The position numbers and the translations under genes are program-made. A DNA stretch of 22,036 nt from a bacterium (GTDB lineage: Bacteria > CSSED10-310 > JAJRTK01), in the NCBI GenBank assembly GCA_024278345.1, contig JAJRTK010000441.1:1-22036 (forward strand). The letters run 5' to 3'. The notes beneath the pieces were generated by a model. That model was not told the origin of the DNA. It saw nothing but the letters and a program-made list of their open reading frames with translations, and ran no database searches. Below are positions 2,546-22,036 of this stretch, piece by piece. Within the stretch, counting starts at the first letter, position 1. Each line of letters starts with the position of its first letter.

Positions 2546-2622
<77 letters not shown>

Positions 2623-3025: not shown

Positions 3026-4075
3026 ATGCCTTCGCAGGATTCGGATTCTTCCAGAGGATACGACGATGACAGGACGATTGTCCGTGGAATCGATGTCGTT
3101 CAGAAAACGGAAGAACAACAGGCTTACCTGATTGTGCTGAACGGTACCACTGCAGGGAAGATGTTCAAGCTCGTGGTCGAGGAAGCGATTGTAGGCCGCT
3201 CGGCGGAAGCCGATGTGTTGTTGACCGATGAGTCGGTTTCCCGCAATCACGCTCGCCTTACCCGGATTGGGTCATCGATCCAGATCTCCGATCTGGGCTC
3301 GACCAATGGGACTTACTGCAACGGTAAGCAGATCAAGGACTACATCCTCAGTGATGGCGACAAGATCCAGATAGGCTCCCACATCATTCTGAAGTTCAGC
3401 TATCAGGATAACTTGGAAGAGGCTTATCTCAAACAGCTCTACGAGTCCGCAACGAAAGATGGCCTCACGGAGATCTATAACAAGAAATACTTCCTGGATC
3501 AGCTCCGGTACGAGTTTTCCTTTGCCCAACGGAAGAAGATGCCCCTAAGCCTGATCATCTTTGACCTGGATAAGTTCAAGGTCTTGAATGATACCTACGG
3601 GCATCTGGCGGGGGATGCGGTTCTCAAGCAGATCTCGCGCATCGTGATCACCCAGATCCGCAGCCACGACCTCTTCGCCCGTTACGGCGGGGAAGAGTTT
3701 GTCATCATGCTCCGAGAGACCGATGAGCGTCAGGGCGCAATCCTGGCCGAGCGAATTCGCCGGAAAGTGGAGCAGAGCAAGCTCGGGTACGAAGGAATCT
3801 CCTTCCCGGTGACAATATCCGTCGGCGTGGCTTCTTCCATACGGGATGCCGTGCGCACGCCCGCTCAGCTCATAGAGAAAGCTGATATTGCCCTCTATAA
3901 GGCCAAGGAAGGCGGGCGAAACCGGGTGGAACTCTACTGGGAAACCGAACAGGGAAGCTTCGCGGCGAATCACAATTTCGCCATGAAGACTCAACCGATG
4001 AAGGTCTTTAAGAAGGTCGGAGAAGAGGACCAGGAGCTTCCGTCGCCCGAGGGCGAAAACCGATCTTCCTCGTAG
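3026..4075 (+). CDS. FHA-GGDEF diguanylate cyclase
   Basis: A soluble 349-residue protein expected to make cyclic di-GMP from two GTP. A disordered acidic tail (1-32, with DDDRT at 13-17) precedes an FHA phosphothreonine-binding domain (about 34-127) that keeps GRS (57-59), S72xxH75 and N94G95. A short helix leads to a GGDEF domain (about 145-305) with metal and substrate residues D180, N188 and D189 and an intact GGEEF active site (221-225). RSHD (212-215), five residues before it, is the standard product-inhibition I-site, so the enzyme should be active and feedback-controlled. No membrane segment or signal peptide is present. The domain order is that of Bdellovibrio DgcB, whose FHA domain binds a phosphorylated threonine in its own N-terminal tail; Thr17 is a candidate for the same role here (inference). 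The start has GAGAGG five bases upstream. Confidence 0.95.
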   Translation: MPSQDSDSSRGYDDDRTIVRGIDVVQKTEEQQAYLIVLNGTTAGKMFKLVVEEAIVGRSAEADVLLTDESVSRNHARLTRIGSSIQISDLGSTNGTYCNGKQIKDYILSDGDKIQIGSHIILKFSYQDNLEEAYLKQLYESATKDGLTEIYNKKYFLDQLRYEFSFAQRKKMPLSLIIFDLDKFKVLNDTYGHLAGDAVLKQISRIVITQIRSHDLFARYGGEEFVIMLRETDERQGAILAERIRRKVEQSKLGYEGISFPVTISVGVASSIRDAVRTPAQLIEKADIALYKAKEGGRNRVELYWETEQGSFAANHNFAMKTQPMKVFKKVGEEDQELPSPEGENRSSS

Positions 4076-7982: not shown

Positions 7983-9824
7983 TCACTCGTACAACCCCAC
8001 CAAGTCTAGATCAATTTGAAAAATTTCCGTTTTTAGGCGACTTCGCGTGTAGATCTCGATCCCTTGGATGTCCCGGCCACTGAACTGGAGCGGCCGCCCC
8101 TGACCTGACTGCCGGAGAGAAGTCCACGGAATCTGGATTTCCGTCCAATCTTCACCTGGAACGAAGGTCGCCTGGAAGTAATCCTCGTCCGTGACCGATG
8201 CCGTAGGAAGCCGGAGCCAGAATTGCTTCCGATTCCCGCGGACCCGGAGGTGGATTCCGGAGAAAGAGGCCATGCTCCGAGGGGAACCCTTGTCCGAGAC
8301 AAGGGAAAGGCGGATCCCCGTTTCCGACCCTCGGGAGGAGCGCCCGCTCAGCCGGAGATAGCCCCCAAAATCCGTCTTGATGAGCCGCGCCTTGGGTTCT
8401 TGCGATGCGTCTTTGGAGTAGGGTTCCCATTCCCGCTCATTCCGCGCTACAAGATTGAGATCGCTAAAGTCGTCCAACGTCGGACTCGTCCATGGGATTC
8501 CCAGGATTTGGTTTGCCTCGCCTTTTCCAGCCAAAAGGCTCAGGTCCACGAGCTCGCCGCCAAGAATGATCTTCTGGATAGTTTGGCTTCCCTTGATTTC
8601 CTTGGTGGGGTCTTCGGAGAGGAGCAAGAGGTCCGCGGCATACCCCTTTTCGATCCTGCCAGTTTTTTCGAGACCCAAGGTCCGGGCTCCATTCTCCGTC
8701 GCGCATTTCAAAGCCTCGGCAGGGGTCCAACCCGCTTGCACTAGCAGCTCCATCTCCCGGTGGACGGAGAATCCCGGCACATTGAGAGGGCCGGGAGACC
8801 AGCTCCCTACGGCGATGGGGACGCCCGACTTGTGAAAGCTCTTCATCAGCTCTAGGACAAGTTTTTGCCCCTTGATCAGAATAGTCCTGCTCAACCCATA
8901 GCGAGACAACGGTTTGGCCAGTGATCCAGGAAGCCTGTCCAGATCCGGGGGCTTTCGGAGCGGCGGATACTCGATCATGGAAAGGCCGGGCACCAGGGGA
9001 ACCCGCGACTCCGCAAGCTGAGGGAAGCCCTCTCCGTCCAGAAGACCCTCCAGACCCACGCTCCAGAGCTGCGGAACCACATACTTCCGGAAAAGGCTCT
9101 CCGGACTCTTTTGATAAGCAAAGGGACTAAGCTGGATCATGGATGTCAGGGGAGACGACAGGTGTTCCAGGGAATCGAACGGGATTGCCAGGGCTTGCTC
9201 GAATTTGAGCGCACCCACGCGCGCGGCGACTTTCAATCCCCTTGCGTGGGCTATGGGGACAATCGCCGCCGCCACTTCTTCGGGCACGGCTGGTTCCAGG
9301 AAAAGCCATTCCGCCCCGCGACTCCAGGCATCTTCCACCACGGACTCCAGATTCTCTTTCGCCGATACGCGGTAATCGCATCGAGGTGGGTTGCTCTTCA
9401 TGTCCAGCGTCGCGCCGCGCACGAGGCGGGGAAGTTTTTCCTCCGACGGTTTTCTCGCCGCTTCGAGGCCCCCCACCAGCCGGAGAGTCGTGACCCCGTA
9501 CCGGAGGTTCAACCGTAGACAATCCAAATCCTGACAGCGACTGGCCAGGTCGATGAGGCCGGGGATCGCGAAAAGACCTTCCGAATCCAGCGCCTCATAT
9601 CCGTCCGGCACTTGGTTTCCCGGAAGAATCTCCTCGATGCGGCCCTCTTTGATCAGGAGAGTCACGACGCCGGCCTGGCCCGCGATCCTGATGCCGCTCA
9701 CGGCAAAGGGCACATCAGCGACCGCCGGAATCGCCCACGAAAAAAGGCCAACCGCGAACCCAAGCAGCGCTCCGAGTCGGCGCCACGAGCTAAGAATACC
9801 GGAACACTGAGAAGAGATGGTCAT
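7983..9824 (-). CDS. Exported amidohydrolase-fold protein lacking metal ligands, with CIA30-like C-terminal domain
   Basis: 613 residues from ATG 9824 (a TTG two codons earlier, at 9830, is equally possible; neither has a clear ribosome site). A signal peptide (about 15-37, ending AVAD) is followed by an amidohydrolase-superfamily fold of the imidazolonepropionase/prolidase type: N-terminal beta-sandwich, PGLID (88-92), YGVTT (109-113), LEH (219-221), GWTPAEAL (365-372) and the GRIEKGYAADL ending (about 389-399) typical of the family. The metal-binding HxH after PGLID is replaced by Ala94 and Arg96, the HA position by Arg202, and the catalytic Asp after a strand by Trp342. It therefore looks like a pseudoenzyme, although His221 is kept. 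Residues about 480-613 resemble CIA30/galactose-binding-like beta-sandwich domains. It is convergent with the DUF2252 gene; the 150 bases between them contain no clear terminator. Confidence 0.8.
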   Translation of the reverse strand: MTISSQCSGILSSWRRLGALLGFAVGLFSWAIPAVADVPFAVSGIRIAGQAGVVTLLIKEGRIEEILPGNQVPDGYEALDSEGLFAIPGLIDLASRCQDLDCLRLNLRYGVTTLRLVGGLEAARKPSEEKLPRLVRGATLDMKSNPPRCDYRVSAKENLESVVEDAWSRGAEWLFLEPAVPEEVAAAIVPIAHARGLKVAARVGALKFEQALAIPFDSLEHLSSPLTSMIQLSPFAYQKSPESLFRKYVVPQLWSVGLEGLLDGEGFPQLAESRVPLVPGLSMIEYPPLRKPPDLDRLPGSLAKPLSRYGLSRTILIKGQKLVLELMKSFHKSGVPIAVGSWSPGPLNVPGFSVHREMELLVQAGWTPAEALKCATENGARTLGLEKTGRIEKGYAADLLLLSEDPTKEIKGSQTIQKIILGGELVDLSLLAGKGEANQILGIPWTSPTLDDFSDLNLVARNEREWEPYSKDASQEPKARLIKTDFGGYLRLSGRSSRGSETGIRLSLVSDKGSPRSMASFSGIHLRVRGNRKQFWLRLPTASVTDEDYFQATFVPGEDWTEIQIPWTSLRQSGQGRPLQFSGRDIQGIEIYTRSRLKTEIFQIDLDLVGLYE

Positions 9825-9904
9825 GAGCAAGAGGCCCGTTCATGGGTTCGACTCCAGAGCTTACGAGTCGGTTGGCTGTGATTCGCAATTCGCAGAGTAC
9901 TTCG

Positions 9905-11597: not shown

Positions 11598-13139
11598 TCA
11601 GCCTTTCCGCTGCGACACATTGAGAGAATTCGCAGGGCACTTTGGACCCTTTCGGGCTCGTAGCTTTGCCTGGATCTTGAGGCGAAAGTAGACCGCCGCC
11701 ATGATGGCGTAACGCTTGAAATCTCCCCGGGATCGAATCGAACGGAGCACGCGAGGGATTTTTTTCCAGATGGAATAATGGCGGCCTCCAATGAAGGACC
11801 AGCGAAACATGAGCTCGCAGATTTGGGACCACTTGAGCTTGTGGACGAAGAGTGGCACGTGGCCCTGGGCTGCCGGAAGCGTGATCACTCGCGGATCTCG
11901 TTCCACCGTCCAGGAGTAGTCCTTAGGCAGGACTCCCAGATCCTTGGCTGTCTTTTCCAAGGGCGTGCCCGGGTAGACGTGCATGATGGAAATCGTTGGC
12001 GTGGTCTTGCCTTTGAATTCTTCCATGATGTCAATGGTCTCAAGGGCGTCTTCCCAGGTCTCCGTGGGATGGGAGAAGATGTAAAACGGATTGGTAATGA
12101 TCCCGAGCTTATGACTCCAGTCCACGATTTTCCGCGCCTGAGCACGGTCGAATTTCTTGAGAATGACCTCTTTCCGAATTCGCTCGCAGCCCGATTCCAC
12201 TCCGAATCCCATGTAGTAAAGGCCGGCTTCCCGCATCCGCTCCAGGACCCTTTCATCCAGAAGGTCGATCCGCACTTCGCAAAACCAGTGAATGTCCAGC
12301 CTCCGCTCAAGGATCTCGTCGCAGAGGGCGTACATCCTCTTGCGGCTGACGTTGAAAGTGTCGTCGTAGAACCAGACGGCCTTGGAGCCGTAGGTCTCCT
12401 GGCAGTGCTCAATCTCGTCCACGACCCGGGCTACGCTGTGAGCTCGCACCGTGCGGCCCCAGTTCGTCGGCGTAGCACAAAAGGTGCAAGTGAACGGGCA
12501 TCCTCGCGTTGTCATGAGGTTGCAGGCCGGCAACGGCCCAATGCCTGGAACGTCCATGGTGAAGTTGTATTTTTCATACGGAATCAAGTGCCGCGCCGGC
12601 ATGGGAAAATCGTCCAGATCCCGGACGCGCGTCCGCTTTTCGTTATGGACGATCCCGCCCTGGGCCCGGAACGAAAGACCCTGGATTTTTCGCAAATCCC
12701 GCTCTTCTCCCCCGGCCTTCAGGGCTTGCATAAGCTCGAAAAGCGTGCTCTCCCCCTCGCCTCGGGCCACCATGTCCAGATTCGGCAGGTTTGCCAGGCA
12801 ATCCTGGGCTGTGTGCGTCGGGTGGGGTCCACCGATGATGGTCAAGGTTTCCGGGCAGGCCTCTTTCATCCGCGTGACCAGCCGAAAGCTCTCGAACCGG
12901 TTTTCCGTCGTGCAGGTGACGCCCACCAGATCGGGCTTATAGCCTTCTACTTCCCCAATGACATCCGCTTCCTCCATCCCCAGAACATGCGATGGAAGAA
13001 CACTCACCTCGAAGCCTTCTTTTTCCAGAACGGCAGCGAGGTAAAGGATGCCCAATTCCGGCATCATGACCCCGTGGGACCAGCGCTCGGCGAAATAGCC
13101 TCCAGGTGGAGTGACCAGCATCATCTTCGGCTGCGCCAT
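11598..13139 (-). CDS. B12-binding domain radical SAM protein (BchE-like family)
   Basis: A 513-residue cytoplasmic protein. The N-terminal cobalamin-binding Rossmann domain (about 5-145) has HVLG at 51-54, matching the HxxG part of the DxHxxG motif with the Asp replaced by Pro49, so base-off cobalamin binding through His51 is plausible. A radical SAM core follows with C214xxxC218xxC221 for the [4Fe-4S] cluster, FYDDTF and the GVESG segment. The C-terminus (about 400-513) is basic and rich in aromatic residues, suggesting a lipid or membrane-linked substrate. Family members carry out methylation, ring closure or similar reactions on bacteriochlorophyll, hopanoids and other metabolites; no neighbour fixes the substrate. 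The ATG at 13139 has GAGG eight bases upstream; a GTG at 13148 is the alternative. It has its own promoter. Confidence 0.9.
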   Translation of the reverse strand: MAQPKMMLVTPPGGYFAERWSHGVMMPELGILYLAAVLEKEGFEVSVLPSHVLGMEEADVIGEVEGYKPDLVGVTCTTENRFESFRLVTRMKEACPETLTIIGGPHPTHTAQDCLANLPNLDMVARGEGESTLFELMQALKAGGEERDLRKIQGLSFRAQGGIVHNEKRTRVRDLDDFPMPARHLIPYEKYNFTMDVPGIGPLPACNLMTTRGCPFTCTFCATPTNWGRTVRAHSVARVVDEIEHCQETYGSKAVWFYDDTFNVSRKRMYALCDEILERRLDIHWFCEVRIDLLDERVLERMREAGLYYMGFGVESGCERIRKEVILKKFDRAQARKIVDWSHKLGIITNPFYIFSHPTETWEDALETIDIMEEFKGKTTPTISIMHVYPGTPLEKTAKDLGVLPKDYSWTVERDPRVITLPAAQGHVPLFVHKLKWSQICELMFRWSFIGGRHYSIWKKIPRVLRSIRSRGDFKRYAIMAAVYFRLKIQAKLRARKGPKCPANSLNVSQRKG

Positions 13140-13189
13140 GGTCGGCACCTCGCGGGTTTAAGCAGATCGAGAAAATCGCCGTCCCCTTG

Positions 13190-13218
13190 TTTGTAAGCGA
13201 TATGCTTGCTTTAGTCAA
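13190..13218 (-). promoter_or_regulatory. Probable promoter of the radical SAM gene
   Basis: On the minus strand TTGACT (13218-13213) and TACAAA (13195-13190) are separated by exactly 17 bases. The transcript would start near 13183, about 45 bases before the ATG at 13139. Confidence 0.65.
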
Positions 13219-13227
13219 GAAGAAATG

Positions 13228-13275
13228 GCACCACGGCCTCGGGTGGTGCAAAAAGGGACCGGTGGGCACCGGCCC
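13228..13275 (-). terminator. Tandem intrinsic terminator of the bactofilin operon
   Basis: On the minus strand, GGGCCGGTG and CACCGGTCCC (13275-13255, one bulged base, loop CC) form a strong GC stem followed immediately by TTTTT (13254-13250). A second hairpin, GCACCAC/GTGGTGC with an eight-base loop (13228-13249), follows directly. The pair separates the bactofilin operon from the radical SAM promoter at 13190-13218. Two such stems in a row would insulate the two units well. Confidence 0.65.
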
Positions 13276-13721
13276 TCGAACAAATGCGCGGTGCCGAGCA
13301 TAAGCGAGACGCGGCCCAAGGAACCCAAGCGCAAGCTGCCAGCGGAGGTGCCGTGCGCCGGGCGACAGCCGCCAAAGCGGCCACCGATGACCAGCCCCGC
13401 GCCTGGTCACCAAGGGCATGGAGAGGCGGATACCGGAAGCGTAGTCTTGCAAATCATCGAGGAGCCGGCTGCCGAAGCCGTCGGTGGAAAGGATGGAGGA
13501 TGCCGCGGTAGGGACCTATCAAATTGTCGTGTTTTTGCTTTACAATTTTCTTCGCCCAAACGGTGGCACCGGCATCTTGCCGGTGTAGCGCCCTCCGGGC
13601 TGCACGGCGCCGGGAAGGAGGCCCGCACTAGACGAACAATGCTGGAGCTCGAGGTTTCAAGCCCCAGCACTGGTTGATCCGGCGTAGGGAAGAGGCAGGG
13701 GCTTGTGAAGCCTTCCAGTCG
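13276..13721. other. GC-rich noncoding interval with several hairpins
   Basis: About 450 bases after the bactofilin stop with no gene I can support. It contains TGACCAG/CTGGTCA (within 13388-13410), a perfect 8-bp stem CACCGGCA/TGCCGGTG with loop TCT (13567-13585) directly followed by a GCCC/GGGC hairpin, and TGCTGGAGCT/AGCCCCAGCA (13640-13669, one mismatch). A 7-bp inverted repeat AAATTGT/ACAATTT (13521-13548) lies in a short AT-rich patch. The CACCGGCA stem has the look of dispersed palindromic repeats. This may be the long 3' untranslated region of the operon or a graveyard of small repeats. Confidence 0.4.
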
Positions 13722-14207
13722 TTATTCCAGCTCGTCATCCAGATCGGGATCAAGGAGAAGATCTTCTTCATCTTCTTCAGCTTCCTCTGGCGCGGTGGAA
13801 GCGGCGTCGGGCGGGGCCGCGGTTGTTTCTCTGGGCTTGACAGCTTCGTGATCCCCGACTTCCACGTGGGATGTTCCGAAGGTCACGGTGTGCCGCGTAC
13901 CAGAGTCATCGGAGGTGAGCTTCACTTCCAGGCTGGCTGCGGAGATCGAGGTGTTGTCGCGGACATTCCCGGCCAGGGTAACCCGTTCAGCCTTGATCTG
14001 CCCGGAGAGCTCCCCGTGAGAATCGAGACTCTCGACGTTGACTTCGCCGTGGACACTTCCGGTTTCACTAATGACGAGAGAAGTTGCGAAGAGTTGTCCT
14101 TCGATCCGTCCGCTCACGTGAACGGGGCCGACGGAGGTCAGTTTTCCTTCGAGCTTTGAGGTTTCAGCAATGATCGTGCGGGGCTCCTGGTCTCCGTGCG
14201 AATCCAT
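13722..14207 (-). CDS. Bactofilin (polymer-forming cytoskeletal protein)
   Basis: 161 residues. The core (about 10-115) shows the bactofilin pattern of short beta-strands with regularly spaced Gly and small hydrophobic residues (GRIEGQL, GSVHGEV, GELSGQI, LAGNV), expected to fold as a right-handed triangular beta-helix that polymerises end to end without nucleotide. A long C-terminal tail (about 120-161) is very acidic (EEAEEDEED and further Asp and Glu) and probably disordered. Bactofilins scaffold cell-wall enzymes, stalks, chromosome segregation proteins or motility factors. The ATG has AGGAG seven bases upstream. It is the last gene of a three-gene unit, 132 bases after the pentapeptide gene, with a terminator about 450 bases downstream. 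The acidic tail would suit binding to the basic N-terminus of the first gene's product (inference). Confidence 0.9.
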   Translation of the reverse strand: MDSHGDQEPRTIIAETSKLEGKLTSVGPVHVSGRIEGQLFATSLVISETGSVHGEVNVESLDSHGELSGQIKAERVTLAGNVRDNTSISAASLEVKLTSDDSGTRHTVTFGTSHVEVGDHEAVKPRETTAAPPDAASTAPEEAEEDEEDLLLDPDLDDELE

Positions 14208-14339
14208 GAGATATCTCCTGGCAGGTTTCTTGTGTGTCCGCTGAGATTGAGAGGATCCCTCTACCTTGCGTGTTGCGTTGGCCGGGGCGCGGGGATCCTA
14301 TCGACTCTCATCTGAAATGCACTCTTTTTCAACGCGGCC

Positions 14340-15617
14340 CTAGCTTGGTTCCTCTGGAGCGACGATTTTGAGCCGTAGGGCACAGCCGTGCTCAAAGACG
14401 AACTCCGTATAGCCGTTGGGCTGGCGCACCGTTGCCTGGGCGCATCCTCCGGCCTTGACAGTAAAACGTCGGGCATCGGAAACGGCTAAGTCGCCATTCT
14501 GAAGAAGGCGACCTAGAACGGTGATAATTCCCGGTCCCACGACCTCGCATTGGTTGAGGAGTCCGTTGGGGCCAATGACGAGCTTTGCGTCTTCGCCGAG
14601 GGCGATATTGCAATGCTCGAACTTGCCTTCGATATGGACCTCTGAATCCGCACCAAACTCCAGATCGGCGTTTCTGAGGATGTCGGCTTGGCCGAAAAAC
14701 CGGACGCCCGCCGGCTGCGGCGGCGCCACGGGAGCGACAGGCACTGGTGCGGCGACGGGGATGGCTGCAGGTTCAGCCCACCCTTCTGGTGTCCTTGCTT
14801 CCGCCAAGGTCCGCTTGATGGAGCCATCGCCGGAGCGGCTAAGATCGATCCAGTCGCCGGTGGCGGAGGCGAACTGGCCTGGCTCACATTCGGCGTCCCA
14901 GAACCGGGCTCCTTCCACGAAGGCTCCGTCAAGGACGGCGTTTCGCAAGTTGGCGCGCCGCAGATCGGAGTCGTAAAGATCGGCCCGTTCGAGGTTGGCC
15001 CCCACGAGGATCGCCATCTCCAGCGTAGCCCCTTGGAATCTGGCCGCTTCGAGGTTAGCGTCCCGAAAATTTGCGCCTTCCAGGTTGGCTCCTCGCAGGT
15101 CAGCCTCTTCCAAGTTTGCTGAGTCGAACACGGCTTTCCTGAGGTCAGCTTCCCCGAGGTTCGCTCCGCCCAGATAGGCTTCCTCGAAGTCGGCGTTTTT
15201 CATTTTGGCTTTGGAAAGGTCGGCCTTCCCGAGGTTCGCCTCCATGAAGACCGCTCCTCGCAGCCGGGTCCCCTGGAGGTTGGCTCTTTCCAGGATTGCG
15301 CCTTCGAGGTTAGCTCGCGTCAGATCGGCGTTGCGAAGGTTTGCCCCCGTGAGGTTGCAGCCTTCCAGATCGGCATTCCTCAGGTTTGCACCTTCGAGGT
15401 TTGCGCCGCCCATGTGCGCATCCCGGAGGGAGGCGCTTTCCAGGTTAGCTCCCCGGAGATCCGCATTCCCGAGCTTTGCTCCGGTCAGTTCCGCGCGTGG
15501 GGCCCTGAGTCCCGGAAGAGCCACGCCTTCGAGGTCGATATCTCTCAGATCTGATCGTTCAAGACCCTCGCCGAGCTCGACCAACTCGAAAATCTGAGCC
15601 TTGGTGTACTGTGCCAT
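14340..15617 (-). CDS. Pentapeptide-repeat protein fused to a bactofilin-like beta-helix domain
   Basis: 425 residues from ATG 15617; AAGGAGA stands about ten bases upstream. A short N-terminal helix (1-18) caps about 44 pentapeptide repeats of the A(N/D)LxG type (about 22-245), which fold as a right-handed quadrilateral beta-helix rod of roughly eleven turns. A Pro/Ala-rich linker (about 280-303) leads to a second domain (about 304-420) whose spacing of Gly and short hydrophobic strands (GADSEVHIEGKF, GEDAKLVIGPNGLL) resembles a bactofilin-type beta-helix. The reading frame is 103 bases downstream of the HhH gene and upstream of a true bactofilin, so polymer co-assembly or capping is an attractive guess. 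It is not a Qnr-type gyrase mimic by any visible feature other than the repeats. The highly repetitive coding sequence also opens long meaningless frames on the other strand. Confidence 0.88.
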   Translation of the reverse strand: MAQYTKAQIFELVELGEGLERSDLRDIDLEGVALPGLRAPRAELTGAKLGNADLRGANLESASLRDAHMGGANLEGANLRNADLEGCNLTGANLRNADLTRANLEGAILERANLQGTRLRGAVFMEANLGKADLSKAKMKNADFEEAYLGGANLGEADLRKAVFDSANLEEADLRGANLEGANFRDANLEAARFQGATLEMAILVGANLERADLYDSDLRRANLRNAVLDGAFVEGARFWDAECEPGQFASATGDWIDLSRSGDGSIKRTLAEARTPEGWAEPAAIPVAAPVPVAPVAPPQPAGVRFFGQADILRNADLEFGADSEVHIEGKFEHCNIALGEDAKLVIGPNGLLNQCEVVGPGIITVLGRLLQNGDLAVSDARRFTVKAGGCAQATVRQPNGYTEFVFEHGCALRLKIVAPEEPS

Positions 15618-15720
15618 GGTAACCCATTCTCCTTGTCTGGAACTCGAGCAAAGTAGACGGCGAGCAGATGGCCCGTCGAGCTTTTCTCGCATCATCAGCG
15701 ACAGCGGCGCACTTCAACCG

Positions 15721-16998
15721 TCACGGACGGGAATCGAGACACTCCCGAAGTAACTTGATTCTTCCGTCAAAGGGGAGTCGCTGCAGCTTCTCGACGACGG
15801 CTGCCTGACCGAGCTCGAGCAAGACGACCTCAATCCGCAAGGCGACATGTTCCCGGGCACGCCTATGAAGGCGCTTGGTTTCGATCCAGCGTTCGGCACC
15901 CCATTCACGTGCCGCCTGCCGGAACCTCTTGTGATGATCCTCTAACCGGTCAACAAGGTCTGCCAGCTTCTCCCACGAGGCGATTCGGTATTCCCCCGAA
16001 GCCACCATTCTTTCAGATTCCCGCTCCCGCTGGTATTCCCTGATTTTGTCACAGACCTTGGTCGCTACCCGTTCTGAGACATTGGCCGTCCGCACGATAT
16101 CGGGTGGATTCGCCGCGAACAAGACATCGAGGGACGTGAAACCGGCGGCAAACAGTTTGTCGAGAGTGACGCGCCCCACTTCTGGTACCTGCTTGAGGAG
16201 CGACAGAATCAAAAGGCCTTCCGCAATTTGAGGTTCCCCCTCCTCCTCGCCGACCTCCTGTTCGACGTCCGGCATTTCAAAGACATTGGGCAGAACCTCC
16301 GAGATCCGCCGGTACTCTCTCAGCAGTCCTTCCCGCTCCGCTCCGCCGATCACCGGCGCATCGGTTTTCTCGCAGTCCTGCAAAACCTCCTCGAAGGATG
16401 ACAAGAGCGGTACCACATCATCCAGTTGCATGGAACGGGAGGAAGAAAGAAGCATGCGGATTGAGGGCAGGCAGATGGTGATCCATTCTCTGGACGCATC
16501 GCCACGGGCAAGCTCACTGGCGAAATCCGTGACGGGGCGCACATATTGCTCCGCGATGGAGGCAAAGAGTTCTCGTGCCTCCGCGCGCACAAAATCTTCG
16601 TAGCTGCCCGTATAAGTTTGCGCCCCGGCGATTTCGAGATGTGGCTGTGGATGATCCGCTGGTAGTGGCAAAGAAGGTTCTTCTTCTTCTTCTTCTTCTT
16701 CCAGGGAAGCGGGATCGACGTCCCCGGAAAAGAGAGCATCGAAATAGTCATCGACCTTCTGGTCGAGCTCGTCTTCCACATCCACGCCAACTACCGTCGC
16801 AACTTCCGGCCCGGCCTCTGGCTCCGCGAAAGGCTCCACGGCCATGGGCTCCGATTCCAGAACCGCCGACGGCGACACCACGACAGAAGCAGCCTCCGGT
16901 ATGGAAACCTCGGGGGCAGGCGTAACAGGCACCTGCTCCTTAGCTTTGGCGCTGCTCTTGCGTCGCTTTTTTTTGGACCACCAGTCCCAAACACCCAT
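15721..16998 (-). CDS. Helix-hairpin-helix protein with basic aromatic N-terminus and acidic linker
   Basis: 425 residues from ATG 16998 (GGGAG seven bases upstream; the frame is open to 17115 but the promoter lies inside that part). The N-terminus WDWWSKKKRRK (4-14) could lie on a membrane surface or bind acidic partners. A Pro/Ala/Val/Glu-rich linker (about 20-125) includes eight consecutive Glu (100-107). A helical middle (about 135-245) follows, then a tandem helix-hairpin-helix segment (about 265-325, VPEVGRVTLDKL and ANVSERVATKV) of the type that binds DNA backbones without sequence preference or mediates protein contacts, and an Arg-rich helical C-terminus. I know no characterised homologue. 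As first gene of the pentapeptide/bactofilin unit it could link the scaffold to DNA or to the membrane (inference). Confidence 0.78.
   Translation of the reverse strand: MGVWDWWSKKKRRKSSAKAKEQVPVTPAPEVSIPEAASVVVSPSAVLESEPMAVEPFAEPEAGPEVATVVGVDVEDELDQKVDDYFDALFSGDVDPASLEEEEEEEEPSLPLPADHPQPHLEIAGAQTYTGSYEDFVRAEARELFASIAEQYVRPVTDFASELARGDASREWITICLPSIRMLLSSSRSMQLDDVVPLLSSFEEVLQDCEKTDAPVIGGAEREGLLREYRRISEVLPNVFEMPDVEQEVGEEEGEPQIAEGLLILSLLKQVPEVGRVTLDKLFAAGFTSLDVLFAANPPDIVRTANVSERVATKVCDKIREYQRERESERMVASGEYRIASWEKLADLVDRLEDHHKRFRQAAREWGAERWIETKRLHRRAREHVALRIEVVLLELGQAAVVEKLQRLPFDGRIKLLRECLDSRP
16678..16701. repeat. (TTC)8 trinucleotide run
   Basis: Eight perfect TTC units on the plus strand encode Glu100-Glu107 of the HhH protein on the minus strand. 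Pure codon runs slip during replication, but in units of three, so the acidic linker could change length without losing frame. Confidence 0.85.
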
Positions 16999-17046
16999 AA
17001 GAGCTCTCCCAGCACCCGCGAGACTGGGTAACAAAATCTGATCTAA

Positions 17047-17076
17047 CCTATAGCATAGACTCGTTGGCCAGTGCAA
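17047..17076 (-). promoter_or_regulatory. Probable promoter of the HhH-pentapeptide-bactofilin operon
   Basis: On the minus strand TTGCAC (17076-17071) and TATAGG (17052-17047) are separated by 18 bases, and TGC directly before TATAGG forms an extended -10. The transcript would start near 17040, about 42 bases before ATG 16998. This promoter also supports the shorter start of the HhH gene. Confidence 0.62.
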
Positions 17077-17136
17077 GGGGAAATACCGAAATCCTCCCTC
17101 CATCTTGGCGCCCAACCCTCAGCTCTGAGAGCCTCG

Positions 17137-17200
17137 GGAGGGCAAGCCCCTCCTGCCCCTATTGGGACCGAGTCAGCTCCACCGGACTGAGTGTGGAGCT
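17137..17200 (-). terminator. Hairpin pair after the TolC-like gene
   Basis: On the minus strand, 15 bases after the stop at 17215, AGCTCCAC/GTGGAGCT (17200-17175) forms a perfect 8-bp stem with a ten-base loop, followed by GGAGGG/CCCTCC (17153-17137). There is no T-run, so this is a termination or mRNA-end structure by position only. It precedes the promoter of the next operon. Confidence 0.4.
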
Positions 17201-17214
17201 TGGAGAGGCGCTTG

Positions 17215-18816
17215 TCAATGGGAGGTTCCTTTTTCAAGCCCGGGCCGGCCCGGATTGTCACCGAGATGTGGGAGGGGGTTTTCTCCCGCGGCCCGCCAAA
17301 GCTCGGCGATGGCGATGTTATAGGCATGGACGGCACGGAAGTAGCCAAGGCTCTCTTCCACGTGGGCTTCCAATGCACGAAAATGAGATTCAGTCCTCGC
17401 CGATCCCAAAAAATCGGTTCCAGCCAGAAGAACCAGCCCCCTGGCAGCCCGTTTTCCCTGGGCGGCGGATCCCAGATCGGCCTTCGCTTTCACCGCTTCG
17501 AGCCAGGCTTTCTTGAGCTCGATCCGAAGCCCCATCTCCGCTTGGCGAAGCTGGCTTCTTGCTTTCCTAAGCTCCGCGAGCCCACGGGCTTGGGCTGGAA
17601 ACGGCCCCCAGAGCTCGGGCTTCCAGCGGAGCCCCAGTACCAGTCCCGGTTCAATCGTATTCCAAGGATCGAACGCAAAGGGATTTTTCTGGTCGTCGCG
17701 ATTGGGCGCGATTCCGTAGCGGAAGAAAAAACCCGCGAAGAGCACGGGCCAGTCTTCTCGTTCCATCACCTCCAGTTCCGCTTCTCTTGCCCGCACCCCT
17801 TCCCGAGCTTGTTGGAGGCGGCTTCCCTCCTGAAGCTTGGCCAGATACTCCTCCAACGGCGCAAGGGCATGGGCCATGGGCTTCAGCCTTCTTTCGGCCA
17901 GCACCAGCGGAGTCTCCCCGCGGAGCCCCAGCTCCATTTTCAGCCCGTCCAGGGCCAAGGTCCTGCCGACTTCGAGTTCCCGTAGCCGCCGGGCCAGACG
18001 GCTTTGGGCCAGCTCTACCGACAGGAGGTCGCGCCGCTCCGGTTCGCCCAGCTTCCGCCTGGGAGGGACGCCTTCCAACACCTCGCCGTCCAGCTCCGCC
18101 TCGTCTAGCTGTTCCAGCTCGTCGAGCCGCCTGCGGATCTTCTTTTCAGCCCTCTCCAGATCCCGGGCAATCCCCGAAAGGAACCGAAGAATCTCCCCTG
18201 TCAAGAGCACCGAGTCGTACCGGTCGATCACGGTCTTGGCCACCTGTCCGCGGAGCGCCTTGACGCCCTCATTTCTGGCGCTGAGGCCGTGGAGTGCCGC
18301 TCTTTGCCCCGCCGCCAACCGGCCGAAGGTCCAGAGGGGCTGGATGATGTCTACCTCCAACCGTGAAAAGGGCCCCAATCCGTCCAGGAAGTCGTTCACG
18401 GAGTCTTCCGAGGCGCTGGGATCGCCTTTGGCCTCGTTGATCAGGCCGAAGATCTGCCGGACTTCCACCGTTGCCAGTCGTGCGCGTTTCGCTCTCTGGA
18501 GATCCGCGGCCACCAGTGCCGCCTCAGCCAGCGCCTCCTCGATTTTCGGGCTTCGTTTCCATGCCATTCGGATGCAGTCAGCCCGGCTCATCCCATGAGC
18601 GCGTTCTGGCCTCTGACTGCTCCCAGCCGGTTCTGGAATCGGTTTTCCTCCGCCTGCCCAGGCGGTGGCAGCCAGGAGTAGCCCAACGGCCCACAAGGCC
18701 GTAGCCCAGGCCTGCCGGTGGTGATGGGCGAGCGACGGGAGCGGCTGCGAGTGGCGGGAGCGGAACCCAACCCAAAAAAAAGGCTCACTCGTTGGAAGAA
18801 AACTTCGCACTTTCAT
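17215..18816 (-). CDS. TolC-like outer-membrane efflux protein
   Basis: 533 residues. After an unusually long signal region (hydrophobic core about 40-52, likely cleavage after AWA at 54) the protein shows the outer-membrane efflux protein pattern: a conserved MSRADCIRMAWKRSP start (76-90), long helices rich in Ala, Leu, Glu and Arg with coiled-coil character, and a beta-strand segment around FAGFFFRYG. TolC-type trimers form the outer-membrane channel of RND and other exporters. The ATG at 18816 lies inside the end of the MlaC-like gene (32-base overlap), suggesting translational coupling. No in-frame ATG or GTG lies between there and the signal core, so the 58-bp dispersed repeat at 18724-18781 is translated as part of the signal peptide's N-region. 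It is the last gene of the three-gene envelope unit. Confidence 0.85.
   Translation of the reverse strand: MKVRSFLPTSEPFFWVGFRSRHSQPLPSLAHHHRQAWATALWAVGLLLAATAWAGGGKPIPEPAGSSQRPERAHGMSRADCIRMAWKRSPKIEEALAEAALVAADLQRAKRARLATVEVRQIFGLINEAKGDPSASEDSVNDFLDGLGPFSRLEVDIIQPLWTFGRLAAGQRAALHGLSARNEGVKALRGQVAKTVIDRYDSVLLTGEILRFLSGIARDLERAEKKIRRRLDELEQLDEAELDGEVLEGVPPRRKLGEPERRDLLSVELAQSRLARRLRELEVGRTLALDGLKMELGLRGETPLVLAERRLKPMAHALAPLEEYLAKLQEGSRLQQAREGVRAREAELEVMEREDWPVLFAGFFFRYGIAPNRDDQKNPFAFDPWNTIEPGLVLGLRWKPELWGPFPAQARGLAELRKARSQLRQAEMGLRIELKKAWLEAVKAKADLGSAAQGKRAARGLVLLAGTDFLGSARTESHFRALEAHVEESLGYFRAVHAYNIAIAELWRAAGENPLPHLGDNPGRPGLEKGTSH
18724..18781 (-). repeat. 58-bp dispersed repeat, copy B
   Basis: Reads T8, GGGTTGGG, then a GC-rich block on the minus strand and matches 10689-10747 at about 51 of 59 positions. 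It begins three bases after the MlaC-like stop and lies within the frame of the TolC-like protein, where it encodes the GFRSR...LPSLAH part of the signal region. Confidence 0.75.
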
Positions 18817-19429
18817 CCTCGATCTTCTGTTCCAATCGCTTGACCAGCTCTTCGAAACCCTGTTCCTCTACGATTTTCCGGGCCTGCTTTTGGAGTTGCC
18901 TGGCCAGGCTCACCTCGTCCAGAAGGATGTCCTGGAGCTTCCACTCCGCGTTGTGGAGCCTTAGCTTGAACTCCAGAAGAATGGTCCCTTCGGTAGGATG
19001 GTTCGCCGTGGCGGCCACCGTCGCCCGTTTCCCTCGGAGGCTTGACGGTTCGTAGGTGATTTGCAGGTTGGTTCCGAAAAATTCGGCGCCCTTGGGGAGA
19101 ACGACGCTCCGGAACAACTTTTCCAGCAGTTGGAGGAACCGCTTTCTCCCGGGATCATCGAGCTCCTTCCAGGTAGGGCCCACCATCCGCCTGGCCAGCC
19201 GTTCCATCTGAAGATAGTGAAGGACGTGGGAGGCTGCCTCGTTTTTTTTCTTGAGATGCTTTGTTTTGGGTCTGTCCTTGGTGGCCCGCATCTTCCGGAC
19301 CTCATCGATGATCTTTCGAACCGTGGTCTGGGGGTCGTCCGAAGGCGCTGCCTCAGGTTGGGCCAAGGCGGTGCCGGCGAAGCCGCCAAGAAGTAGGAAG
19401 CCCGTGGCCAGGGCTGTGAGTAGTTTCAT
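18785..19429 (-). CDS. MlaC/HpnM-like periplasmic lipid-binding protein
   Basis: 214 residues from ATG 19429 (AAGGTGA seven bases upstream). A clean signal peptide (1-23, ALA cleavage) is followed by the MlaC/Ttg2D fold: a helical N-part with a Lys-rich segment, FLQLLEKLFRSVVLPKG (helix-strand), the central strands ITYEPSSLRGKRATV, then WKLQDILLDEVSLARQ and a final amphipathic helix. MlaC carries phospholipid between membranes, and HpnM, of the same family, is associated with hopanoid-producing bacteria and lies next to hpnN. Here it is 71 bases downstream of the HpnN-like gene, which favours an HpnM-like role, and it overlaps the TolC-like gene by 32 bases. Confidence 0.88.
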   Translation of the reverse strand: MKLLTALATGFLLLGGFAGTALAQPEAAPSDDPQTTVRKIIDEVRKMRATKDRPKTKHLKKKNEAASHVLHYLQMERLARRMVGPTWKELDDPGRKRFLQLLEKLFRSVVLPKGAEFFGTNLQITYEPSSLRGKRATVAATANHPTEGTILLEFKLRLHNAEWKLQDILLDEVSLARQLQKQARKIVEEQGFEELVKRLEQKIEDESAKFSSNE

Positions 19430-19500
19430 GGTAAATTCACCTTGGGCCGTGGTTTCGGAGTGGACAAGGGAGTCTCCACCTGAAGTTTTTGGCGGTGCCT

Positions 19501-21792
19501 TCAATTTGGTGACGAGTTTTCTGAACCCGCTTTTCTTTCAATGCGTTGCGTTCCGCTCACATCAGGCGCCGTCCGACGCCCGCTGCTCGCCATTTTTGCC
19601 CCCTTCCCCATCGGTTGCCCGGAAGGCGCCTCGCCACCGAGTTTTTGCCCGCTCCTGTATGCGGCCTTTGGGCCTTTTTGGTCCAGGAGGCAAAAGAGTG
19701 CCGGCAGGGCCGTCAACGAGGCCACGAGGCAACAGCCGATCCCGATAAGGAGGAGCAGGCCCAGGGAATAGGCGCCGTAGTAATGGGCGGACAGGAGGCT
19801 TCCAAAGCCCGCCATCGTCGTGAGAGAGCTTAGAATCACGGCCAGGCCCGTGCTCCTTGTGGCTGCCTTGATTCCCGGTTCGGGGTGGAGCCCGTTCCGT
19901 TCCTGAAACCAGCGCTCTGTCAAATGGATTCCGGCGTCAACGCCGATCCCGATGAGCAGCGGGAGGATCACCATGTTGGCAAGGTTCAGATCGAGGCCGC
20001 TCCAGCCCATGATCCCCGCCGTCCAAGCGGCCCCGAAAAAGAGCGGCACTAGGGGCAGAACCATTCCCAGCAGACTCCGAAACTCGAAGGCCAGAAAAAG
20101 GAGGATCGCCACCGCCGAATAGAGCCCGCCTTCCAGATAGCCTTCCCGCATGAGGCGGGTGCCTTCGTAGGTGGTCACGGGTTCGCCCGTCGCGCTTGGA
20201 TCGACGCTCCGCACCGCCTGCACGAAGGCCTTCAATGGAGCGTCGTCCCAAATCGGCTTCTTGGGGTAGATCTCCAGGAGCAGTTTCCCAGTGCGACCCA
20301 CGAGGCGCTGCTTGAGCCCAACAGGAAGGCTGTCGGGGGTGATGGGCTGGAGATGTTTTGAGTCAAGAACCAGGCGAAGCCCCTGGCGCAACTCTCTGAA
20401 TAGGCGTGCTCCGGTGGTTTCAAGGCCTGCGATGGCCTCGGTGTCAGATAGATTCTCAAGGAGCTCTTCGAAGCGCCGAAGCGCTTCCCGCGCCTTTTGA
20501 AGAGCCTCTTGTTCGGCGATATCTTCGCCTGTTTCGCCCCGTTCCTGGAGCTTGAAGCGGATGCGCCGGAGGATCTGCTCCAGAGACGGGAGGTCCACGG
20601 GTCGGGGCTTTGCTTCATCGGCGTCGAGATCGATCTCCAGTTCTTCCAGAAAATCGGCTGCCTGGCGAAGCTGCCGGAGCTTTTCTTCCTGATCCGCCGG
20701 GATGGCCCGGACAATCCCGTGGACGGCGCCCACTTCGGGGAGCTTTTCGAACCGCCGCGCCAGGGTGCGGGCCTCTGCCATGGAGCTTGCCAGGGAGAGG
20801 GCGAACCAGCTCGACCGATCGGTTTCGTTCAGGATGCGTTCTTCCCATTCCACGGCAGGCGTTCCCTGGGCCTGGAGCTCCAGCAGATTGCTGTTCACCG
20901 CCACCTTGGCGGCCTGGGAAAGGGCGGCTGCCACCAGAAGGAGGCAGATCCCAAGAACCGTGCGCGGCCGGCGGCCCATGGCGGTAAGAATCCGTTCGAA
21001 ACCGCGCTGGAACGGTCCCAGAAACGAGCCGCCGCCCCTGATTCCGCCCTTTCTTTCCCGGGCGCGGTCCGCCAGGGAAAGGAGTGCCGGAAGTAGCGTG
21101 AAGGTGGCCAGAAGGCAAAAGAGCACGCCTCCGCCCGCGATGATTCCAAGCTCCGAGATCCCCAGGAATGAGCTCATTCCCAGCGCCAGGAAGGCCACGG
21201 CGGTGGTGGTGGCTCCGCAGACGATGCCGCGGCCACTGTTTTTTAGTGCGAGGCCCATGGCCGCGCCGCGGGGGACTCCTTGCCGTAGCGCTTCGTCCCG
21301 CCGGGCGATGAGGTGGATGGCGAAGTCGATGCCCAGCCCCACCAAGATCGTGGAAAACATGGCCGAAACCACTGTCACTCGTCCCACGGCCACCACGGTG
21401 AATCCAGCCGTCCATGCGATGGCTAGCGCCAGGGAAGCCAGGGCCAGCACCGGTTCCAGGAGCCTCCGAAAAGCCAGGGCGAAGAGAAGGCCGACTCCAA
21501 AAAAGGCCAGAAGAGAAGCCCGCTTCATGTCCACGGCCGTCACCGCCATCTCCTCTGCTTCCATGGCCGAGGCTCCGGTCACACCGAAATCCAGGCCGGG
21601 ATAGCCCGTTCGGAGCTCCCGCCCCAGTTTCCAAACGAGTTGCAGGGCTCCTCCGGCCCGGCCGAACGATGCCTTGTTTTCCACCGGCTCTACAAGGACG
21701 AAGAAGAAGCCGCCTTTGCCAGAAGTCAGCCATCCGGCCTCCTCCCAGAGGTCGGGCTCCGCCTCCGGGGAAGAAGAGAGCGTCGAACCCAT
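19501..21792 (-). CDS. HpnN-like RND/MMPL transporter, N-terminally truncated
   Basis: 763 residues from the first ATG outside the neighbouring repeat (21792); the frame stays open through that repeat to 22008. Five to six membrane helices (about 92-240) with GLGIDFAIH (152-160), helix 7 (about 277-297), a large periplasmic domain (about 300-555) with long helices, and a second helix block with the duplicated motif GIGVDAGIHL show an RND permease of the HpnN/MMPL type. Such proteins have about 850-880 residues; the first membrane helix and the first part of periplasmic domain 1 are missing, and homology-like sequence begins near PDLWEEAGWL (13-22). No ribosome site precedes 21792. The protein is probably broken, unless translation starts in or beyond the repeat. 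Intact HpnN moves hopanoids to the outer membrane. Confidence 0.8.
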   Translation of the reverse strand: MGSTLSSSPEAEPDLWEEAGWLTSGKGGFFFVLVEPVENKASFGRAGGALQLVWKLGRELRTGYPGLDFGVTGASAMEAEEMAVTAVDMKRASLLAFFGVGLLFALAFRRLLEPVLALASLALAIAWTAGFTVVAVGRVTVVSAMFSTILVGLGIDFAIHLIARRDEALRQGVPRGAAMGLALKNSGRGIVCGATTTAVAFLALGMSSFLGISELGIIAGGGVLFCLLATFTLLPALLSLADRARERKGGIRGGGSFLGPFQRGFERILTAMGRRPRTVLGICLLLVAAALSQAAKVAVNSNLLELQAQGTPAVEWEERILNETDRSSWFALSLASSMAEARTLARRFEKLPEVGAVHGIVRAIPADQEEKLRQLRQAADFLEELEIDLDADEAKPRPVDLPSLEQILRRIRFKLQERGETGEDIAEQEALQKAREALRRFEELLENLSDTEAIAGLETTGARLFRELRQGLRLVLDSKHLQPITPDSLPVGLKQRLVGRTGKLLLEIYPKKPIWDDAPLKAFVQAVRSVDPSATGEPVTTYEGTRLMREGYLEGGLYSAVAILLFLAFEFRSLLGMVLPLVPLFFGAAWTAGIMGWSGLDLNLANMVILPLLIGIGVDAGIHLTERWFQERNGLHPEPGIKAATRSTGLAVILSSLTTMAGFGSLLSAHYYGAYSLGLLLLIGIGCCLVASLTALPALFCLLDQKGPKAAYRSGQKLGGEAPSGQPMGKGAKMASSGRRTAPDVSGTQRIERKAGSENSSPN

Positions 21793-21817
21793 GCCTGTCA
21801 GGGGGGATCCACGTAAG

Positions 21818-22036
21818 GCGGGACAAAACAGGAAAAGAAGAGGGAAAACGCGAAGCGTACAAGAATGTGGGCTGGGATCCCGTTGCCTTTCGTTGCAACG
21901 GGAAGATGAGCGAGCTCCCTGGTGGGTGCAGGGTGAAGCCCTGCCAGGGGACCGGGGACGGAGTCCCCGGACGACCGCCGAGCGGAGCGCGGCGTTGTCC
22001 GAGGCCAAGTTTTTTCCCCGGCGACCATTGTCCCGC
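21818..22036 (-). repeat. Hairpin-rich dispersed element, copy 2
   Basis: In minus orientation this matches copy 1 (2161-2413). Its ends are GCGGGACAA (21818-21826, plus strand) and TTGTCCCGC (22028-22036, the window edge), a perfect 9-base terminal inverted repeat. Internal stems: ACGC/GCGT (21848-21858), CCCGTTGC/GCAACGGG (21879-21902), GCAGGG/CCCTGC (21928-21944) and CCGGGGAC/GTCCCCGG (21952-21970). Where copy 1 has a C-G pair in the last stem, this copy has A-T, keeping the helix. The shared sequence continues a little outside the 9-base repeat (TTACGTGGATCCC on the minus strand, to about 21801). It lies exactly at the broken 5' end of the HpnN-like gene. Confidence 0.8.

Follow-up and report, generated by a model that had tools for sequence, protein, structure and literature searches.

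A conserved gene trio encoding a bactofilin, a pentapeptide-repeat rod and a helix-hairpin-helix protein: a possible bactofilin scaffold with a separate membrane adaptor

Bactofilins are widespread polymers, and their partners are known in a few model bacteria only. An N-terminal membrane-targeting peptide (MTS) is common among them, but not universal. Canonical bactofilins bind membranes via this peptide, which has the consensus MFSKKKK (PMC12448750). In Caulobacter, the bactofilin BacA, which carries its own MTS, recruits PbpC via a 13-residue peptide (PMC12448750), and in Myxococcus the BacNOP bactofilins use an adaptor, PadC, a ParB-like protein that recruits ParA (PMC5703909). Here, we describe a conserved operon, two of whose products are candidate dedicated partners of a bactofilin. 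One may act as an external membrane anchor; the other would, to our knowledge, be the first pentapeptide-repeat rod to be linked with a cytoskeletal polymer. As the sequence-only reading of this DNA had supposed, no described system with this gene set was found in the open-access literature, nor was any paper pairing a bactofilin with either a pentapeptide repeat or a helix-hairpin-helix (HhH) domain.

The window, that is, the whole stretch of 22,036 nucleotides analysed, is one contig of a metagenome-assembled genome of 6.06 Mb in 550 contigs. Three co-directional genes, encoding an HhH protein, a pentapeptide-repeat (PPR) protein and a bactofilin in that order, lie on one strand as had been claimed, and their starts are backed by alignment with orthologs:

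15721-16998 (-): HhH gene, 425 aa (ORF with ortholog-aligned start)
14340-15617 (-): PPR gene, 425 aa (ORF with ortholog-aligned start)
13722-14207 (-): bactofilin gene, 161 aa (ORF with ortholog-aligned start)

The gaps between them are 103 and 132 nt, so that a single transcript appears plausible. When each protein was searched against 60 relatives, the three genes were found adjoining, with order and strand kept, in two further genomes (G001 and G003), each from another family of the window's phylum:

L036: 959-2188, 2208-3437 and about 3560-3970: HhH, PPR and bactofilin genes of G001
L037: 8896-10287, 10312-11568 and 11614-12111: HhH, PPR and bactofilin genes of G003

The window proteins are 35 and 35% (HhH), 49 and 50% (PPR) and 54 and 42% (bactofilin) identical to the two orthologs. 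In a scan of 84,980 species, the relatives with this operon correspond to the records JACPHN010000082 and JAFGSJ010000012. Its surroundings are exchanged from genome to genome: the window has a set of TolC-like, MlaC and HpnN-like genes together with one for a B12 radical SAM protein, G001 has glycosyltransferases, and G003 has creatininase and CheB; a tblastn comparison of the window's flanking proteins with the loci L057 and L058 of the two orthologs gave no match. The scattering of the three genes in related genomes, which the sequence-only reading had named as fatal to its proposal, was therefore not what was found. The association is more than chance, being a conserved unit across three families at 35-54% identity. 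When 386 genomes were searched with profiles, the HhH protein and the PPR C-terminal domain had full-length relatives in the trio genomes only, which indicates that they are co-inherited. Nor did the scan of 84,980 species add any full-length relative, although such a pattern scan may miss distant ones, and four other members of the phylum lacking an HhH match are 60-90% complete, so that absence there is not certain.

We favor, at a probability of roughly 45%, a three-protein bactofilin scaffold with the HhH protein as membrane adaptor and the PPR rod as a spacer or a link to a client, the support for which is limited by the trio being carried by three genomes only. In this model the bactofilin would form the polymer without a membrane-targeting peptide of its own, and the HhH protein, with an MTS-like tip, would be a membrane-anchored adaptor that binds the polymer via a conserved acidic motif, its core domains, or both. 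The pentapeptide rod would act as a stiff spacer, and the beta domain at its C-terminus may dock on the polymer or recruit a client, for which envelope-synthesis, polarity or chemosensory proteins are candidates. Such an arrangement would resemble that of Caulobacter BacA and PbpC, in which a bactofilin polymer lies at the membrane and a partner is recruited there by a short peptide (PMC12448750), except that the MTS-like tip here is on a separate HhH protein rather than on the bactofilin and that no pentapeptide protein has been described there. It would also share with the Myxococcus BacNOP-PadC-ParABS system the combination of a bactofilin scaffold with a dedicated adaptor (PMC5703909); the proposed adaptor, however, has no match to ParB in a Pfam scan. 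A broader claim, which we consider doubtful, is that the operon encodes a bactofilin cytoskeleton of a new type: a separate pseudo-HPt/HhH adaptor would have taken over membrane anchoring from the bactofilin, and a PPR rod ending in a novel beta-rich domain would serve the filament network as a structural component or spacer.

The bactofilin itself is clear, with a match to PF04519 over residues 11-96 at 57.6 bits against a cut-off of 27.9 (Pfam). The acidic C-terminal tail, which according to the sequence-only reading could bind the basic tip of the HhH protein, is real (net charge -14 over the last 25 residues) and is acidic in all three orthologs, in which its sequence is not conserved. No canonical MTS is present in the window bactofilin or either ortholog, their N-termini being MDSHGDQ, MDQHNET and MAQDAHK compared with the consensus MFSKKKK. 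The two other bactofilins of the window genome have no obvious MTS either, and the missing MTS is thus only moderately informative.

How might the polymer then reach the membrane? The HhH protein has emerged as the candidate. It can be divided as follows, partly on the basis of an AlphaFold2 model built from a three-sequence alignment (pTM 0.43), in which the first 130 residues are disordered and are followed by five helices (133-235), the HhH domain and a long helical hairpin:

residues 1-14: aromatic-basic N-terminal tip
linker behind the tip: disordered and acidic, with the conserved motif EDELDQKVDDYFDALF at about 76-91
about 133-239: HPt-like four-helix bundle without phospho-histidine
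about 262-325: RadA-type HhH domain
about 334-422: C-terminal helical hairpin

The basic aromatic tip had been noticed from the sequence, and it holds up: MGVWDWWSKKKRRK in the window protein, with a net charge of +7 in the first 20 residues. The N-termini of the three orthologs, MGVWDWWSKKKRRK, MGIFERLFKKKAS and MSILGRWFKG, are conserved although the linker behind them is unalignable, and the acidic motif EELDxxIDDSFDxLF is likewise conserved in all three. The tip resembles the membrane-targeting peptide of canonical bactofilins; against the scaffold model, its helical moment is low in the window protein (0.15), compared with 0.48 and 0.53 in the orthologs.

The bundle that follows is likely, though not proven, to be like HPt (CheA P1). 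Its model can be superimposed on CheA P1 (1tqg) with a VIA Z of 10.6 and an rmsd of 3.4 over 103 of 105 residues, a helical-bundle score under about 13 being possibly generic according to a warning of the structure-comparison tool. Among the top matches, at similar Z, are further chains of CheA P1 along with four-helix bundles from protein design, some of which derive from 1tqg. Independently, CheA P1 appears weakly among the sequence-profile matches (E 0.035-0.46). Matches to the H-NS N-terminal domain were set aside, as they cover only part of the bundle. Unlike CheA P1, the HhH protein has no histidine at the phosphorylation position and continues into an HhH domain instead of kinase domains: the column is occupied by R, Q and T in the trio proteins, and none of 8 relatives has a His there. 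Under the scaffold model, the HPt-like and HhH domains would serve as protein-interaction modules, acting neither in phosphotransfer nor in DNA binding.

This core of two domains recurs in G006 (the group reaching an hhalign probability of 97.6%) and, in two copies each, in G040 and G185. In the latter two genomes the paralogous pseudo-HPt/HhH proteins (L042, L051, L101 and L102), the fully read copies of which have an acidic N-terminal region, belong to no Pfam family and apparently represent an undescribed family outside the window's phylum; neither a bactofilin nor an MglA gene adjoins them. In G006 (L038:3086-7947) the HPt-like/HhH protein is followed on one strand by an MglA/Arf-like GTPase, an HU-like protein, a TPR protein and a response-regulator/Roadblock protein.

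Could the trio then be a polarity or chemosensory module, with the pseudo-HPt/HhH protein as a partner of Che proteins or of a small GTPase of the MglA type, and with bactofilin and PPR protein together positioning that system? BacP with SofG in Myxococcus is an example of a bactofilin positioning a polarity system. The row of genes that follows the core in G006 is consistent with this reading, as are the five and six MglA-like genes of G000 and G001 and the CheB gene located 22 nt 3′ of the bactofilin gene in G003 (this CheB methylesterase, at L037:12134-12781, is without a receiver domain). However, the surroundings of the trio showed no adjoining MglA gene in the three genomes, and the CheB gene of G003 has no counterpart there in the window or G001. 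In G040 and G185, too, the core has no MglA as a neighbour, and the phospho-histidine is absent from all 8 relatives; we regard this reading as rather unlikely.

The second candidate partner in the scaffold model, the PPR protein, consists of the following parts:

start of protein: short N-terminal helix
about 20-250: pentapeptide-repeat beta-rod
between rod and C-terminal domain: Pro/Ala-rich linker
about 305-420: beta-rich C-terminal domain of uncertain fold

The rod proposed in the sequence-only reading is secure. It matches Pentapeptide PF00805 with an E-value of 5.1e-64 (Pfam), its model has a pLDDT mostly above 90, and it can be superimposed on HetL (3du1) with a Z of 32.2 and an rmsd of 1.6 over 214 residues; unlike HetL, the protein adds a linker and a beta-rich C-terminal domain of 120 residues. 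The latter had been taken for a bactofilin-like domain, which the sequence does not confirm. Even at E 10, the tail gave no Pfam match, PF04519 included, in the three orthologs, nor did it give a PDB sequence match, and its alignment with bactofilins reaches an hhalign probability of only 0.3-4%, which exceeds reversed and shuffled controls and is not significant, so that assignment as a bactofilin domain by sequence was rejected. The domain is modelled as beta-rich at low confidence (pLDDT 37-73), the structural-library matches of the model all fall on the rod and none informs the tail, and among the 386 genomes searched it is found only in this operon.

A scaffold linking polymer, DNA and membrane had also been suggested. 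That the HhH protein has the helix-hairpin-helix fold is borne out: the HHH_5 score of the window protein (22.9) stays below the cut-off of 27, which the G001 ortholog passes at 27.7 bits, and the domain is closest to the N-terminal HhH of RadA/Rad51 (2bke, E about 2e-5 to 3e-5), with a Z of about 8 over 63-69 residues. This likeness, the organization of chromosomes by bactofilins in M. xanthus and the acidity of the PPR rod (net -16 over residues 1-260), which is structurally comparable to QnrB1 and MfpA, would suit a scaffold with a DNA-binding HhH domain, a bactofilin that places chromosome regions as in BacNOP-PadC-ParABS and a rod that regulates the binding as a DNA mimic. However, in all three orthologs PEVG stands in the hairpin where GhG would be expected, the first Gly having become Glu, and the second Gly is also lost in the window protein; the HhH region has no net positive charge (0, 0 and -3 in the three orthologs), and the whole protein is strongly acidic (-17 to -33). 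On these sequence features a DNA link is not supported. Nor was a gene for ParA or ParB recognised next to the trio, and the best structural matches of the rod are HetL and designed rods, not gyrase inhibitors. We consider a DNA-linked scaffold improbable; the membrane part of the earlier proposal finds support in a membrane-type tip conserved in three orthologs.

The sequence-only reading had further described the operon as bounded by a promoter and a terminator, for which the following sites come into question:

17047-17076 (-): proposed extended -10 promoter, TGCTATAGG; possible but weak
13275-13256 and 13249-13228 (-): terminator-like hairpins 3′ of the bactofilin gene (terminator scan)

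The proposed extended -10 lacks its final T and has a poor -35, and a consensus scan for sigma-70-like sites in 12500-18000 found 0 versus 0.8 expected from shuffling. At the corresponding place upstream of the HhH gene of G001, TTGACA-N17-TAGAAT is present (L036:894-922). The hairpins exist, about 450 nt beyond the bactofilin stop and outside 13722-17076, and the number of terminator-like sites (9) does not significantly exceed that expected by shuffling (6.0 +/- 2.8). Both proposed boundaries are possible and, statistically, weak. These weak signals, the gaps of 103 and 132 nt and the occurrence in three genomes only would fit three genes travelling together without a common complex, for example under shared regulation only, but order and strand have persisted in three families, at 35-54% identity, in spite of exchanged flanks, which makes this improbable too.

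Several other features were observed in the window. Directly upstream of the HhH gene, an HpnN-like RND transporter, an MlaC/HpnM-like protein and a TolC-like outer membrane protein are encoded in a row at 17215-22008 (-), the HpnN-like protein scoring 464 bits, under the NCBIfam cut-off of 752. An amidohydrolase fused to a CIA30 domain is encoded at 7983-9830 (-), and a single protein in which an FHA domain precedes a GGDEF diguanylate cyclase domain at 3026-4075 (+). The sole Rfam match in the window is a tRNA gene at 2549-2622 (-).
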